Origin: a virus
Reading direction: 5' to 3' (one strand)
IMG/VR virus record: IMGVR_UViG_3300045738_000166
Span: 1 to 41,041 of that record
DNA length: 41,041 bases
Position numbers and translations under genes: made by a program. Below, piece after piece: positions 26,439 to 35,236 of the stretch. Positions within the stretch are counted from its first letter, which is position 1; the number at the start of each line of letters is the position of its first letter. Under the pieces are notes generated by a model that saw only the letters and a list, made by a program, of their open reading frames with translations, was not told the DNA's origin and ran no database searches.

Positions 26439-26446
26439 TATAAATA
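26439..26446 (+). promoter_or_regulatory. Late promoter 5 nt before gp20
   Basis: Exact TATAAATA followed by TTGGT and then the gp20 ATG at 26452. T4 late geometry would place the RNA start on or beside the A of the ATG, giving a leaderless portal mRNA. No Shine-Dalgarno sequence is seen. Confidence 0.65.
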
Positions 26447-26451
26447 TTGGT

Positions 26452-28104
26452 ATGGCAGACTTTTTTGGATTTGAAATAAAGAGAAAGGACAAAGCGGCGA
26501 AGGGTAAATCCTTCGTCGCTCCGTCCGACGAAGAAGGTACCCTAGATATTGCTGGTGGTACTGGTTTTTTTAGCCAGTATATAAATGTAGATCGAGCAGC
26601 AAAAAATGATTGGGACCTAGTTCGTAAATATCGCACCACAGCTGAAGCTCCAGAATGTGATAATGCGATAGAAGATATTGTTCAAGAAGCTATTACAGCT
26701 GACGAAACGGATATCTCAGTTAAGGTAAATCTAGATTACACAGATTTATCAATCCCCATTAAGAAAAAAGTTATCGGCGAATTTGGAGAAGTTCTACGTT
26801 TGTTAGAATGGAAACATAAAGGTCACGATATCTTTAGACGTTGGTATATTGATGGTAGAATTCATTATCATAAAATGATTGATGAAAAATCTCCACGAAA
26901 AGGTATATCAGAAATACGATATATAGATCCTAAATTTATTAAAAAGGTTCGTGTAGTAGAAAAGGACAAAAGTAAACCGGATGATGTTACTTTAGTAAAG
27001 AAAGTTGATGAATTTTTTATCTATAATGAAGTAGGCGTCTACCCAGCATTTCAAGGCGTACCGGGCAATAGCGTACAAAATAGTCAGGGAATTAAGATTT
27101 CACCAGATAGTATTTGTTATGTAACATCTGGTATTTTTAATCCAACTACTAAGCAAGTGTATGGACATCTACATAAAGCTATTAAATCAGTAAATCAGCT
27201 TCGTATGATGGAAGATTCTTTGGTGATTTATCGTATCGCTCGTGCACCGGAACGTAGAATCTTTTACATTGATGTAGGTAACTTACCTAAACCAAAGGCA
27301 GAGGCTTACCTAAAAGATATTATGGCTCGTTATCGCAATAAGATTGTTTATGACGCTAGTACTGGTGAAGTCAAAGATGATAGAAACCAAATGTCTATGT
27401 TGGAGGACTTCTGGTTACCTCGTAGAGAAGGTGGTAGAGGTACAGAAATTACTACATTGAACTCGGGTGCAAATCTCGGTGAGATGGATGATGTAACTTA
27501 TTTTAGAGAGAAACTTTGGCGATCTTTAAATATTCCTATTTCACGTTTGTTATCCGATAGTGGTTTTAATATGGGACGATCAGCAGAGATTACTAGAGAT
27601 GAGGTAAAATTTGCGAAATTTATTCAGAGAATACGGAAGAAATTTTGTGGTATATTCCAAGATATATTAAAAACACAATTGGTTTTAAAAGGTGTTATTA
27701 CTATAGAAGATTGGGATCTAATTAAAGAACACGTTGTTTATGACTTTAATGATGATAATCATTTCTTTGAATTAAAAGATGCTGAGTTATTGAAAGAAAG
27801 AATTGACCAATTAACTACAGTATCAGAATATATTGGTACATATTTCTCCGTTGAATGGGTAAGAAAGAATGTTCTTAAACAAACAGATGAAACAATAGAA
27901 GAAATAGATAAACAAATTGCTACTGAAAAGAGTGTTGGTACTATAGCTAAAGATGCTGGTACTGAATTGGGCGGACCAGATGGGGGTTTTGGAGAACCTG
28001 TTGGTCAATTTGATGATGATGAAGAAGAAGATGATGATTATCCAGATGCAGATGATGACAATGGTAATGGTAATGGTAATGGCTCAGAAAACCGAAACTT
28101 ATAA
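26452..28104 (+). CDS. gp20: Portal vertex protein gp20
   Basis: A 550-residue portal protein (T4 gp20 is 524). It begins ADFFGFEIKRKDK, typical of marine T4-like portals. The body contains the conserved DWDLVRKYRTTAEAPE-type segment, RYIDPKFIKKVR and WRSLNIPISRLLSDSGFNMGR with the following helices that line the crown. Portal dodecamers seed prohead assembly and form the channel for gp17. The C-terminus is very acidic (DDDEEEDDDYPDADDD) and ends in Gly-Asn repeats, longer than in T4. The stop codon is embedded in the next late promoter. Confidence 0.95.
   Translation: MADFFGFEIKRKDKAAKGKSFVAPSDEEGTLDIAGGTGFFSQYINVDRAAKNDWDLVRKYRTTAEAPECDNAIEDIVQEAITADETDISVKVNLDYTDLSIPIKKKVIGEFGEVLRLLEWKHKGHDIFRRWYIDGRIHYHKMIDEKSPRKGISEIRYIDPKFIKKVRVVEKDKSKPDDVTLVKKVDEFFIYNEVGVYPAFQGVPGNSVQNSQGIKISPDSICYVTSGIFNPTTKQVYGHLHKAIKSVNQLRMMEDSLVIYRIARAPERRIFYIDVGNLPKPKAEAYLKDIMARYRNKIVYDASTGEVKDDRNQMSMLEDFWLPRREGGRGTEITTLNSGANLGEMDDVTYFREKLWRSLNIPISRLLSDSGFNMGRSAEITRDEVKFAKFIQRIRKKFCGIFQDILKTQLVLKGVITIEDWDLIKEHVVYDFNDDNHFFELKDAELLKERIDQLTTVSEYIGTYFSVEWVRKNVLKQTDETIEEIDKQIATEKSVGTIAKDAGTELGGPDGGFGEPVGQFDDDEEEDDDYPDADDDNGNGNGNGSENRNL
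28059..28081 (+). repeat. GGTAAT hexanucleotide microrepeat
   Basis: Tandem GGTAAT units at the end of the portal gene encode a Gly-Asn run (NGNGNGNG). Such a tract can change length by slippage in steps of two residues without a frameshift. It lies in the non-conserved portal tail. Confidence 0.8.
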
Positions 28105-30273: not shown

Positions 30274-31575
30274 ATGTTTCAAACGGAACAACTACAGGAA
30301 AAGTGGCAGCCAGTATTACAGCATCCTGATCTCCCAGAGATCAAAGATGCTTACCGTCGGGCAGTTACAACAGTTATCCTGGAAAATCAAGAAAGAGCAA
30401 TGCGTGATGACGCTGAGTTCCTTTCTGAGGCAGCTCCTACTAACCAAACTGGTTCAGCTATTGCGAATTGGGATCCAATCTTAATTTCGTTAGTGCGTCG
30501 TGCTATGCCTTCACTTATTGCTTATGATGTTTGCGGCGTACAGCCAATGACAGGTCCTACAGGACTTATCTTTGCAATGAAGGCACGTTATACGTCGCAG
30601 TCTGGAACAGAAGCGTTATTCAACGAAGCTGACACGGATTTTTCCGGAACTGGAACCCATGTGGGTTCAGATGTACTAAAAGCCTTAAGCGCTAGTAACT
30701 ATGCTTCAGGTACAGCTATGACCACAGCTGCTGCAGAAGCGTTGGGCGATTCCGCCTCTAATGCTTTCGCAGAAATGGCATTCAGTATTGAGAAAGCAAC
30801 CGTAACTGCAAAGTCACGGGCTCTCAAAGCTGAATACACAATGGAACTCGCTCAGGATTTGAAAGCGATTCATGGTCTGGATGCAGAAACCGAACTTGCA
30901 AATATTCTTTCAAGTGAGATTCTTGCTGAAATCAACCGTGAGGTAATCCGAACAATCTATATCAACTCGAAACAGGGTGCTGCAGTTAATACAACGACTG
31001 CCGGTATTTTCGATCTTGATACAGACTCTAATGGACGTTGGTCTGTTGAGAAATTCAAGGGTCTTATGTTCTCACTAGAACGTGATGCTAACGTAATTGC
31101 TCGTGATACTCGTCGTGGCAAGGGTAATATTATCCTCTGCTCCGCTGATGTCGCTTCTGCTCTTACAATGGCAGGCCTGCTTGACTATTCAAGTGGTATT
31201 TCTGACAGTCTTACGGTAGACTCCACAGGCAACACATTCGCTGGTACATTGAATGGTCGCTTTAAGGTCTATGTTGATCCTTACACAAACATGGGTGTGC
31301 CTTATTCAGGCTCCGGCGCCACTGCTAACCAGTACTACGTTGTTGGTTACAAGGGCTCTTCCCCATATGACGCTGGCTTGTTCTATTGCCCGTATGTTCC
31401 ATTGCAGATGGTTCGTGCCGTTGGTGAGAGTTCCTTCCAGCCGAAGATTGGTTTCAAAACTCGATATGGAATGCAGGTTAATCCTTTCGCTCAGGCAGCC
31501 GCTGCTACAGACGGCCCTGGCGCTCGTGATTCTAATGTGTACTACCGTAGAGTGCAAGTTACCAACTTGATGTAA
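30274..31575 (+). CDS. gp23: Major capsid protein gp23
   Basis: A 433-residue HK97-fold capsid protein. Conserved T4-like segments include NWDPILISLVRRAMPSLIAYDV, GVQPMTGPTGLIFAMKARY, KAEYTMELAQDLKAIHGLDAE and the C-terminal FQPKIGFKTRYGMQVNPFA. In T4 gp21 removes the N-terminal propeptide at an acidic site. Codon choice differs from the neighbours, with more CGT, ATC, TTC and CTT codons, fitting very high expression. AGGGAG (30258-30263) precedes the ATG. A strong terminator follows. No separate gp24 vertex gene is seen. Confidence 0.97.
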   Translation: MFQTEQLQEKWQPVLQHPDLPEIKDAYRRAVTTVILENQERAMRDDAEFLSEAAPTNQTGSAIANWDPILISLVRRAMPSLIAYDVCGVQPMTGPTGLIFAMKARYTSQSGTEALFNEADTDFSGTGTHVGSDVLKALSASNYASGTAMTTAAAEALGDSASNAFAEMAFSIEKATVTAKSRALKAEYTMELAQDLKAIHGLDAETELANILSSEILAEINREVIRTIYINSKQGAAVNTTTAGIFDLDTDSNGRWSVEKFKGLMFSLERDANVIARDTRRGKGNIILCSADVASALTMAGLLDYSSGISDSLTVDSTGNTFAGTLNGRFKVYVDPYTNMGVPYSGSGATANQYYVVGYKGSSPYDAGLFYCPYVPLQMVRAVGESSFQPKIGFKTRYGMQVNPFAQAAAATDGPGARDSNVYYRRVQVTNLM

Positions 31576-32580: not shown

Positions 32581-33207
32581 ATGGCAACTGAATACGGTGG
32601 TTCTACTAGCACTGCTTCATCGGGTACGGTTGGCGCCTTAAGCAGGCAGCCAACCGTATTCGATTATGCTCAATCTAATCAGTTTAAATTATATCTACCA
32701 CTATTTCCAACAATGGAATGGTTTGTTGTTCGAGCCGCTGTTCCGGGAATGAATTTAGGACAAGCTACACAAGTAACTCCTTTTGTAGATATGCCTCTTG
32801 TTGGTGATAAGATTGTATATGATGCTTTTAATTTAACTTTTTTGGTTGATGAAAAATATCATAATTATATGGAGATATATAATTGGGTAAAGAATATTGG
32901 ATTTCCTTTTGAACGAGAAGGACAATTTAATAAATTACCTAGAGCGGATGGTATTGATAGAAGTGGTCATAAACAGATGCATCCTGTTACAGGAAAAATA
33001 GTAGACAGTAGCGATAGAAATTTATATACTGATATAGAATTAACTATTCTTACTAGTAAGAACAACCCTATTGTTAGAATTACAATGTATGAAGCATTTC
33101 CTACTAATTTGGGGGCTTTAGAATATAGTCAACAGGAATCTGACACTGATTATGTCAGATGTGATGTTACTTTTGCCTATAGTTGGTTTGATGTTAATTC
33201 TTTATAA
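32581..33207 (+). CDS. Tail-tube-fold protein, candidate gp3 tail completion protein
   Basis: A 208-residue protein that follows the tail-tube plan: FKLYLPLFPTMEWFVVRAAVPGMNLGQATQ, then a TPFVDMPLVGDKIVYDAFNLTFLVDE hairpin and YMEIYNWVKNIGFP, mirroring the IPGLTIGEVTVPYRGR and YDAWTVTV elements of gp19 here. It is therefore a tube-related protein rather than the main tube. In related marine T4-like phages the gene between gp23 and uvsY is commonly annotated gp3, the tail-tube terminator; a gp54-like initiator is the other option. Its stop codon is inside the next late promoter. Confidence 0.65.
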   Translation: MATEYGGSTSTASSGTVGALSRQPTVFDYAQSNQFKLYLPLFPTMEWFVVRAAVPGMNLGQATQVTPFVDMPLVGDKIVYDAFNLTFLVDEKYHNYMEIYNWVKNIGFPFEREGQFNKLPRADGIDRSGHKQMHPVTGKIVDSSDRNLYTDIELTILTSKNNPIVRITMYEAFPTNLGALEYSQQESDTDYVRCDVTFAYSWFDVNSL

Positions 33208-33210
33208 ATA
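33203..33210 (+). promoter_or_regulatory. Late promoter of the candidate structured RNA
   Basis: Exact TATAAATA that includes the stop codon (33205-33207) of the tail-tube-like gene. Adding the usual six bases puts the RNA start at about 33216, which is exactly the first base of the long helix of the RNA described next. Confidence 0.7.
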
Positions 33211-33215
33211 CTTTT

Positions 33216-33346
33216 GGAGGCGGCCTGAGGTCAATTTTAAAGTTAATTTTAAAGAAATCTTCCAAAATATAGTTGTTTAATTGATTGGAAGTTTAAGATG
33301 TAAAGCACAAAGTAAGTGATTGATTTTGGGTCGCCTCTGCTTTTTA
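33216..33346 (+). ncRNA. Candidate structured RNA with 21-bp terminal helix
   Basis: In a 152-nt gap without any credible reading frame, bases 33216-33236 can pair without interruption with 33318-33338: 14 Watson-Crick and 7 G-U pairs, starting GGAGGCGGCCU against GGGUCGCCUCU. The 3' arm runs into GCTTTTTAT, a terminator-like U-run. The 5' arm begins where the late promoter at 33203-33210 should start transcription. Inside, CTTCCAA (33259-33265) pairs with TTGGAAG (33285-33291), and AATTTTAAAG occurs twice (33233-33242, 33245-33254). I recognise no known RNA family. It may be a small RNA of about 130 nt, or an elaborate terminator/leader before uvsY. Confidence 0.6.
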
Positions 33347-33359
33347 TAATGGATATATT

Positions 33360-33785
33360 ATGGATCTCGAAACACTACAAAATCAAGCTGATATTGATTT
33401 AAAAATAGATGATACTGAATTAGACCTAGAGTCTATTCGTACTCCTCAGCTGCACAACAAATACCTTAAATTATTTACAAAGCATTCTTTGCAATTAAAA
33501 AAGGTAAAGGATGATTATGATGGACTGTATAAATTAAAGTGGGAATATTATACAGGGAAGGCGCCGATGAATGTTTATCAAGCTGAACCTTTTGATTTGA
33601 AGGTACTCAAAGCGGATGTTCATATCTATTTAAATGCAGATGCAGAACTGCAAAAACTAGGACAACGACAAGAATATTTAAACATAATTGTAGTTTATTT
33701 AGAACGAGTATTACGGGAAATAAATAATCGTAACTGGAACATTCGTAATACCATAGAATGGAAGAAGTTTATTCATGGTGAATAG
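33360..33785 (+). CDS. uvsY: Recombination mediator UvsY
   Basis: A 141-residue protein matching UvsY (T4: 137 residues), which loads the UvsX recombinase onto gp32-coated single-stranded DNA. The LHNKYLKLFTKHSLQLKKVK helix, the conserved LKWEYYTGKAP segment and the C-terminal EYLNIIVVYLERVLREINNR helix fit the family. Next to uvsW, as in T4. No convincing ribosome binding site precedes the ATG (only GGA at 33351-33353), so translation may depend on the structured RNA upstream. Confidence 0.9.
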   Translation: MDLETLQNQADIDLKIDDTELDLESIRTPQLHNKYLKLFTKHSLQLKKVKDDYDGLYKLKWEYYTGKAPMNVYQAEPFDLKVLKADVHIYLNADAELQKLGQRQEYLNIIVVYLERVLREINNRNWNIRNTIEWKKFIHGE

Positions 33786-33787
33786 GT

Positions 33788-35236
33788 TTGAAAGTTACCC
33801 TTGAAAAATTTAATGAAGTATATCTCCGAGTCAAATGTGAGCAATCTGTGGCAAAAGAGCTTTCGGAGTTCTTCACCTTTGAAGTACCGAATGCAAGATT
33901 TATGCCGTCGGTACGAAACCGTGTGTGGGATGGTCGTATACGTTTATTCAGCCCTGCTACTGGTAAAATATATCTGGGACTATTATCGTATGTCCGGAGA
34001 TTCCTCGCAGAAAACGGACACAAAATCGAATACGGAGAAGGATTAGTTCCGCCTAGAAGGTTGGATAAAAACTTAACAAAAAAATTTGTACGAAAAATTG
34101 AAAAAGGAATCCGAACAAGAGATTATCAGATAGATGCGATACATAATATACTTGAATGTGATAGGGGCCTCATTTTGTCTCCTACTGGTTCTGGTAAATC
34201 ATTTATAATTTATGCTCTAGTAAGATATTATATTGAAAAACTAGAAGATAAAAAAATTCTTATTGTTGTACCTAGTACAGGTTTAGTAGAACAAATGTAT
34301 TCTGATTTTGCAGACTACGGCTGGTTTCCGGATGAATATTGTCATAAACTTTATGCAGGAGCAGATAAGAATACTCCTAAAGAAGTAATCATTTCTACAT
34401 GGCAATCTATTTACAATCTACCTAAAAGTTATTTCAGTCAATTTGGAACAGTGTTTGTGGATGAGGCACATCTAGCAAAAGCTAAATCGTTGACAGGTAT
34501 AATGACCAAATTACATGACTGTAAATATCGTATAGGTCTTACTGGTACACTTGATGGTACAGAAATACATCGTTTAGTTTTAGAAGGTCTTTTTAATAAA
34601 CATAAACAAGTAACAACTACTTCAGAATTAATAAGAAGAAAACAATTATCAGATTTACATATAAGCTGTTTGGTGTTAAATCATCCTAAAGATAAAAGAA
34701 ATAGATTTAATTATCAAGAAGAATCTAGTTTACTAGCTGTAGATCCAGCTAGAAATAAATTTATAGCTAATCTTGTTAAAGATCAGGAAGGAAATAGTTT
34801 AGTCTTATGTAGATTTATAGTGCAATTGGATCATCTTTATGAAATGTTAAACAAAGATGTACTTAGAAAAGTGTTTATGATATATGGTGGAACAGATACA
34901 GAAGATCGTAATGAGATAAGAGGTATTGTAGAAAAGGAAAATAATGCTATTATTATAGCATCGTATGGTGTATTTTCACAAGGTATTAATATTAAAAGAC
35001 TTCATAATATTATATTTGGATCACCATATAAATCACAGATCAAAGTGTTGCAATCTATAGGAAGGGGTTTGAGAGTTGCTGAAGATAAAAAACAACTGAA
35101 AGTATTTGACATTGTAGACGATTTGAGTTATAATGGAAGGGAGAATTATACTTTAAAACATTTTAAAGAAAGAATTACAATATATAATGAACAATCATTT
35201 GAATATGATATTATACCTGTTAAACTTAAAAAGTAA
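33788..35236 (+). CDS. uvsW: DNA/RNA helicase UvsW
   Basis: A 482-residue superfamily 2 helicase (T4 UvsW is about 500). The N-terminal domain (residues 1-85, with RVKCEQSVAKELSEFFTFEV and RNRVWDGRIRLF) is UvsW-specific. Walker A SPTGSGKS is at 131-138, DEAH at 225-228, and a QSIGRGLR motif VI near 420. In T4 it unwinds R-loops and branched DNA, ending origin-dependent and promoting recombination-dependent replication. The start is TTG at 33788, 2 nt after the uvsY stop; family alignment supports it and no ATG fits. Confidence 0.95.
   Translation: MKVTLEKFNEVYLRVKCEQSVAKELSEFFTFEVPNARFMPSVRNRVWDGRIRLFSPATGKIYLGLLSYVRRFLAENGHKIEYGEGLVPPRRLDKNLTKKFVRKIEKGIRTRDYQIDAIHNILECDRGLILSPTGSGKSFIIYALVRYYIEKLEDKKILIVVPSTGLVEQMYSDFADYGWFPDEYCHKLYAGADKNTPKEVIISTWQSIYNLPKSYFSQFGTVFVDEAHLAKAKSLTGIMTKLHDCKYRIGLTGTLDGTEIHRLVLEGLFNKHKQVTTTSELIRRKQLSDLHISCLVLNHPKDKRNRFNYQEESSLLAVDPARNKFIANLVKDQEGNSLVLCRFIVQLDHLYEMLNKDVLRKVFMIYGGTDTEDRNEIRGIVEKENNAIIIASYGVFSQGINIKRLHNIIFGSPYKSQIKVLQSIGRGLRVAEDKKQLKVFDIVDDLSYNGRENYTLKHFKERITIYNEQSFEYDIIPVKLKK

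Follow-up and report, generated by a model that had tools for sequence, protein, structure and literature searches.

In a T4-like phage, the gene of the recombination mediator UvsY is preceded by a folded RNA module which begins at the predicted start of a late transcript, and the same architecture, in modules of roughly 100-130 nt, is present upstream of uvsY in a large group of marine T4-like phages, about 85 distinct relatives. The module is very probably a structured, cis-acting 5' leader of the late uvsY(-uvsW) mRNA; this reading is broad and takes in action on the polymerase, masking of the ribosome site and sensing of a small molecule, which are weighed separately below. What comparison of related sequences establishes is the conserved fold, where it lies and that it is coupled to the promoter; the transcript, its start and its end are predicted.

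Organization of the uvsY locus

The window, the whole stretch of 41,041 nucleotides that was analyzed, is part of a T4-like phage genome. The features used in this study are as follows.

30274-31575: major head protein
32581-33207, + strand: tail tube protein gene (PHROG 45, E 2.4e-32)
33203-33210, + strand: T4-type late promoter TATAAATA, exact match
33216-33338, + strand: structured leader module, starting with the predicted +1 and ending with helix P1 (z -4.67; homologous modules in relatives)
33216-33236, + strand: 5' arm of P1 (21 of 21 positions pair with 33318-33338; P1 of relatives 100% paired, with compensatory changes)
33259-33291, + strand: inner hairpin P2 (from the fold and the alignment with relatives)
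33318-33338, + strand: 3' arm of P1, partner of 33216-33236, on the same evidence as the 5' arm
33339-33359, + strand: A+U-rich linker ahead of the uvsY AUG (from the sequence)
33360-33785, + strand: uvsY, recombination mediator, the gene led by the module (PHROG 231, E 1.8e-43)
33788-35236, + strand: uvsW helicase, immediately 3' of uvsY (PHROG 16, E 5.5e-104)

The stop codon of the tail tube gene (TAA, 33205-33207) lies inside the promoter box. T(-13) of the T4 late box is documented (PMC2988020), and a box span of -13 to -6 was derived from it. As TATAAATA occupies 33203-33210, this spacing puts the predicted +1 at 33216, in agreement with the perfect late promoter and the start at about 33216 of the original prediction. 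The linker contains a Shine-Dalgarno-like GGA at 33351-33353 and TTTTT at 33341-33345.

Fold of the window copy

The two arms of P1 form 21 unbroken pairs, 14 Watson-Crick and 7 G-U, exactly as predicted, and are followed by GCTTTTTATAAT. The region 33216-33346 has a minimum free energy of -38.2 kcal/mol (z -4.67), and not one of 200 dinucleotide shuffles, the control proposed with the original prediction, was equally stable. The predicted internal 7-bp hairpin was also recovered; it is P2, in which CUUCCAA (33259-33265) pairs with UUGGAAG (33285-33291). P2 represents the counterpart of the CUUC...GAAG hairpin conserved in relatives, and UUUAAGA on its 3' side may correspond to their conserved AUAUUUAG.

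On the + strand of the window, nine perfect TATAAATA sites were folded. Besides the uvsY leader, z below -3 was obtained at 26439 and 29016, where the RNA is mainly coding sequence after a leader of 0-45 nt. At 26439-26600, the predicted +1 of the late promoter coincides with the start codon (ATG) of a long open frame and a strong hairpin (z -3.7) lies within the coding start.

Distribution of the element among relatives

Searches of IMG/VR and of phage records with UvsW, UvsY and the tail tube protein yielded several hundred loci. In the sampled loci, the gaps between the tail tube gene and uvsY fell in two main sets, one of 9-66 nt without the element and one of 109-159 nt with it, and in a small third set genes are inserted between the two. 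De-duplication gave 93 candidate leaders, and removal of seven promoter-like chance matches without a fold left the above-mentioned figure of about 85. Their late promoter is in the same place and mostly overlaps the tail-tube stop codon, and the upstream neighbour of the leader is the tail tube gene in the relatives whose upstream side was read.

In the UvsY tree, the window is at the base of a fully supported clade of 59 rows. The element occurs throughout this clade with two exceptions, L133, where it is present behind a variant promoter box TATAAGTA, and L035. The latter is an odd contig (2406-2578) in which the tail-tube coding sequence continues into the middle of the leader and the 5' half is missing, an arrangement due to recombination or misassembly. 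Outside this clade, the element is found in the Melnitz clade (21 rows) and in the pair L219/L235. The pelagiphages Mosig and HTVC008M possess uvsY and lack the leader element, so in general uvsY can do without it.

Several further arrangements were seen around uvsY. L268 (DQKQ01000259.1), recorded as a contig of a Flavobacteriales MAG, carries a uvsY with 55% identity and a leader of the type of L170, and is probably a phage contig. In two phages without the element (L037 1209-1276 and L041 1640-1707), a short CCCAC/GTGGG hairpin lies between the tail tube gene and uvsY, with a GTATAAATA box directly 3' of it. HTVC008M has an endonuclease V gene inserted before uvsY (L109 2126-2608), and Mosig has a 2OG-Fe(II) oxygenase gene inserted after it (L108 2577-3164).

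The window copy shares with its relatives the place, the late promoter, P1, the CUUCC/GGAAG hairpin and the position of uvsY about 20 nt downstream. It does not have the CUC bulge between P1 and the next helix, P1b, and its core is much changed. Covariance models R1 and R3, built without the window copy, both gave their top match of the 41 kb at 33214-33341, in exact register. The scores, 12.2 bits for R1 (E 1.3) and 13.5 bits for R3 (E 0.64), fall short of significance. The window copy is thus a divergent member of the family, assigned to it from position and architecture more than from sequence.

Covariation and the conserved core

Among the 22 sequences of group I, all cells of P1 (10 pairs) are paired (100%), and 6 of its 10 pairs have changed on both sides; for P1b (7 pairs) these figures are 89% and 6 of 7. 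The inner hairpin P2, at 95% pairing, hardly varies. Shuffle and slide controls on the alignments also favor the covariation. A model-based alignment of 32 sequences agrees with the group I counts, although it was fitted to the model and is therefore biased toward it.

Column-by-column ranking of covariation under a tree-based null had too little power, the best pairs reaching only E 0.08-0.4, and hence whole helices were tested against a phylogenetic null in which columns evolved independently along the tree. With 39 substitutions on the tree, 100% of the cells of P1 remained paired; for the 7 pairs of P1b these values were 43 and 92%. None of 1000 null simulations reached either result. In group II alone, P1 is too little varied for significance (424 of 1000 null simulations). 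Across 31 diverse representatives, less than 80% identical to each other, each 5' arm pairs with its own 3' arm at a mean of -24.4 kcal/mol compared with -13.7 for swapped arms, a difference matched by none of 100000 permutations. The original prediction had proposed a search for covariation in homologous gaps. Compensatory changes are present there, and with the conservation in about 85 relatives the claim of a structured RNA beginning at the late +1 holds on its comparative side.

The invariant bases are mostly in P2 and in the stretch 3' of it, AUCUUC...GAAG-N-AUAUUUAG; the core of group II reads UCUC...GAGAUAAUAUAGAAC. Group II also has a long-range helix, ACUUN/NAAGU, which covaries (0 of 1000 null simulations) and for which group I and the window show no counterpart. 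It shares bases with a weaker conserved local hairpin, GAAC/GUUC or GUAAC/GUUAC (74 of 1000), in the group II leaders where the overlap is seen (L110 2056-2170, equivalent to 129845-129959 of the Melnitz genome MZ577097, and loci L190-L210 and L347-L393). This overlap of sequences suggests that ACUUN/NAAGU is either a loop-loop contact or an alternative fold. In one subfamily (L120, L122, L127, L133, L140, L141, L144, L148, L152 and L170), an inner helix of another kind seems to take the place of P1b: (A)CAG(C/U)CCG is found close to the 5' arm, and close to the 3' arm there is GGGUGG or a similar G-rich sequence.

A strand-specific RNA element tied to uvsY

G-U pairs are common in the element; for instance, column pair 12-113 is U-G in 15 of the 22 group I sequences. 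The fold of the + strand is stabler than that of the - strand (p 0.0015). A coding explanation was rejected, the reading frame being open through the element in 0 of 31 representatives. As judged from these comparisons, the conserved fold is a strand-specific RNA and not a signal at the level of DNA or protein.

The element is linked in cis to uvsY. The core motif of group II was scanned for in all of IMG/VR and found in 47 contigs, of which 45 carry it 55-63 nt before uvsY and the remaining two at unrelated sites. The group I motif occurred in 27 contigs, at uvsY in 22 and without uvsY nearby in five, which were taken as chance. In the complete 141.5-kb Melnitz genome, the uvsY site is the sole model match with E below 0.01 (E 4.8e-18), and the next-best match (E 0.06) is antisense within a gene. 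Weak extra model matches in Melnitz, Mosig and HTVC008M were considered as second copies; they overlap coding sequences and were taken as chance.

Position relative to promoter, ribosome site and 3' side

The first pair of P1 lies at -1 (14 copies), +1 (13) or +2 (4) of the predicted late start in 31 of 31 representatives, and the distance from the end of P1 to the uvsY AUG is 8-27 nt. This constant position and spacing, together with a free ribosome site, makes control of uvsY, one of the roles suggested in the original prediction, the best-fitting one.

The U-run at the end of the helix had been taken to define, with the promoter, a discrete RNA of about 130 nt, acting as a free late regulatory RNA or as a 6S-type polymerase decoy with its 3' end after P1. 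The module does have its own promoter and a self-closed fold, and in the window T occupies 6 of the 8 nt directly after the perfect helix. The run itself is therefore real, but at least 6 T within these 8 nt are found in only 4 of the 31 representatives, so conservation gives no support for a discrete 3' end near 33346. The strict linkage and constant distance to uvsY also argue against a free RNA, as does the lack of a 6S match in Rfam, and we consider it unlikely.

The same deficit of U-runs weakens the terminator role that had been offered as another option. A terminator, or a 3'-end stabilizer of the tail-tube mRNA, would suit a stable helix immediately 3' of the tail-tube stop, and some copies (L015, L137, L140, L144) have a T-rich tail. 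Most copies, however, have no T tract, and such a role explains neither the start of the helix at the late +1, common to all copies, nor the conservation of the inner core; it is improbable. Given the 5' end within P1 and the lack of a conserved terminator, the late transcript should continue into uvsY.

Accessibility of the uvsY ribosome site was 0.50 with the leader and 0.51 without it (p 0.58). Read-through RNA gave a mean of 0.47 against 0.50 for RNA from the late start (p 0.24), and removal of the 5' arm, by which the 3' arm of P1 was tried and rejected as an anti-Shine-Dalgarno element, made no difference (p 0.64). Simple masking is thus not predicted. In the minimum free energy fold of a long transcript of the window, the ribosome site is paired with the promoter region, and the 5' arm of P1 is purine-rich and the 3' arm pyrimidine-rich. 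Both would suit a translational switch that hides the site, either in read-through RNA, the mechanism of T4 gene e, or through a new pairing of the 3' arm. Against this stand the equal accessibilities across relatives, which render the switch highly improbable.

A small-molecule riboswitch could account for the closing helix and the sequence-conserved core, and the ACUUN/NAAGU helix of group II could be a loop-loop contact of such an RNA. Yet the accessibility folds gave no expression platform, the element is confined to uvsY, a gene without a metabolic link, and no riboswitch in Rfam matched; this explanation is very unlikely.

As the module is the first thing that the late polymerase transcribes, in 31 of 31 representatives, it might also bind the transcribing RNA polymerase in cis and modify elongation. 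The putRNA of phage HK022 is a known nascent RNA acting in this manner (PMC9378689). Terminator-like sites downstream, by contrast, number 7, close to the 4.8 expected by chance, and the other late promoters of the window run almost straight into coding sequence without such a leader. The chance of a put-like action appears rather small.

With the U-run not conserved and the ribosome site unmasked, a cis-acting 5' leader is favored over a terminator or a 6S-like RNA.

Comparison with known structured leaders

Rfam 15 at the gathering threshold, including 6S, tmRNA, riboswitches and marine phage motifs, gave no match in the window and 13 loci, in line with the earlier statement that no known family was recognized, and under permissive thresholds the region matched nothing in Rfam but eukaryotic small RNAs, which are noise. 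A literature search on uvsY with RNA terms found no description of the element. It is not described in the T4 reviews (PMC2988020, PMC3014915), the only such RNAs named in the Melnitz paper are a glutamine riboswitch and a tmRNA (PMC9004378), and Weinberg 2010 contains no uvsY motif (PMC2864571).

The autogenous operator of gene 32 in T4, T2 and RB69 is likewise a folded 5' leader of a phage recombination/ssDNA-binding gene, with an A+U-rich stretch reaching the ribosome site, and the T4 leader is bound by the gene's own ssDNA-binding product (PMC3014915). The uvsY leader differs in preceding uvsY and not gene 32, in being driven by a late promoter, in the size of its module, which is much larger and has its terminal helix at +1, and in that its protein binding is putative. 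The gene 32 leader has an upstream pseudoknot, whereas for the uvsY leader a long-range contact is suggested in group II. T4 gene e also combines a late promoter with an RNA structure upstream of the gene (PMC3014915), but its late transcript is without the 5' strand of the structure, while that of uvsY holds the whole structure and masking of its ribosome site is not predicted. HK022 putRNA resembles the uvsY leader as a folded, cis-acting phage leader near the transcript start (PMC9378689); it is found in early lambdoid operons and has polymerase as its target. Structured leaders as such are a known kind, and the uvsY leader family and the fixing of its helix to the late start appear to be new.

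The known 5'-terminal stabilizers of mRNA are short simple hairpins. The helix of the uvsY leader, in comparison, encloses some 80-100 nt of loop that include a conserved core. What it has in common with the 5'-terminal stem-loops of papA and other E. coli mRNAs is that the first base is in or next to a stable helix with the coding region downstream; such terminal pairing stabilizes mRNA in E. coli (PMC3997798).

A proposed role for the leader

On the precedents of stabilization by 5' pairing and of T4 gene 32, we propose a 5'-end-protected leader with a candidate protein-binding core in a marine T4-like phage clade, to which we give an even chance of being correct. The late RNA polymerase would start at about 33216, and the first bases of the RNA would be locked in P1, which would close a compact module about 20 nt ahead of the uvsY start codon. 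The paired 5' end may shield the late mRNA against 5'-end-dependent decay. The conserved inner hairpin and the AUAUUUAG-like core would form a putative binding site whose likeliest ligand is a nucleic-acid-binding protein of the phage, UvsY itself or gp32 being first candidates, and such binding would tune uvsY expression late in infection.

More tentatively, the family may represent a new class of phage leader RNA, in which a helix sits on the late start and the core has the late polymerase as its target or senses a phage protein (free UvsY or gp32, for example). If true, this core, possibly locked by a loop-loop contact, would link late transcription to recombination-driven replication.

To our knowledge, few examples of structured RNA have been described in T4-like phages apart from the classic ones of coliphages. 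The element is present in the cultured Methylophilales phage Melnitz EXVC044M (host OM43, strain H5P1), which makes the leader family testable. The helix fixed to the promoter would be a clear natural case of capping of an mRNA 5' end by structure. If the leader controls the dose of UvsY, it would place phage recombination under post-transcriptional control, comparable to the autoregulation of T4 gene 32.
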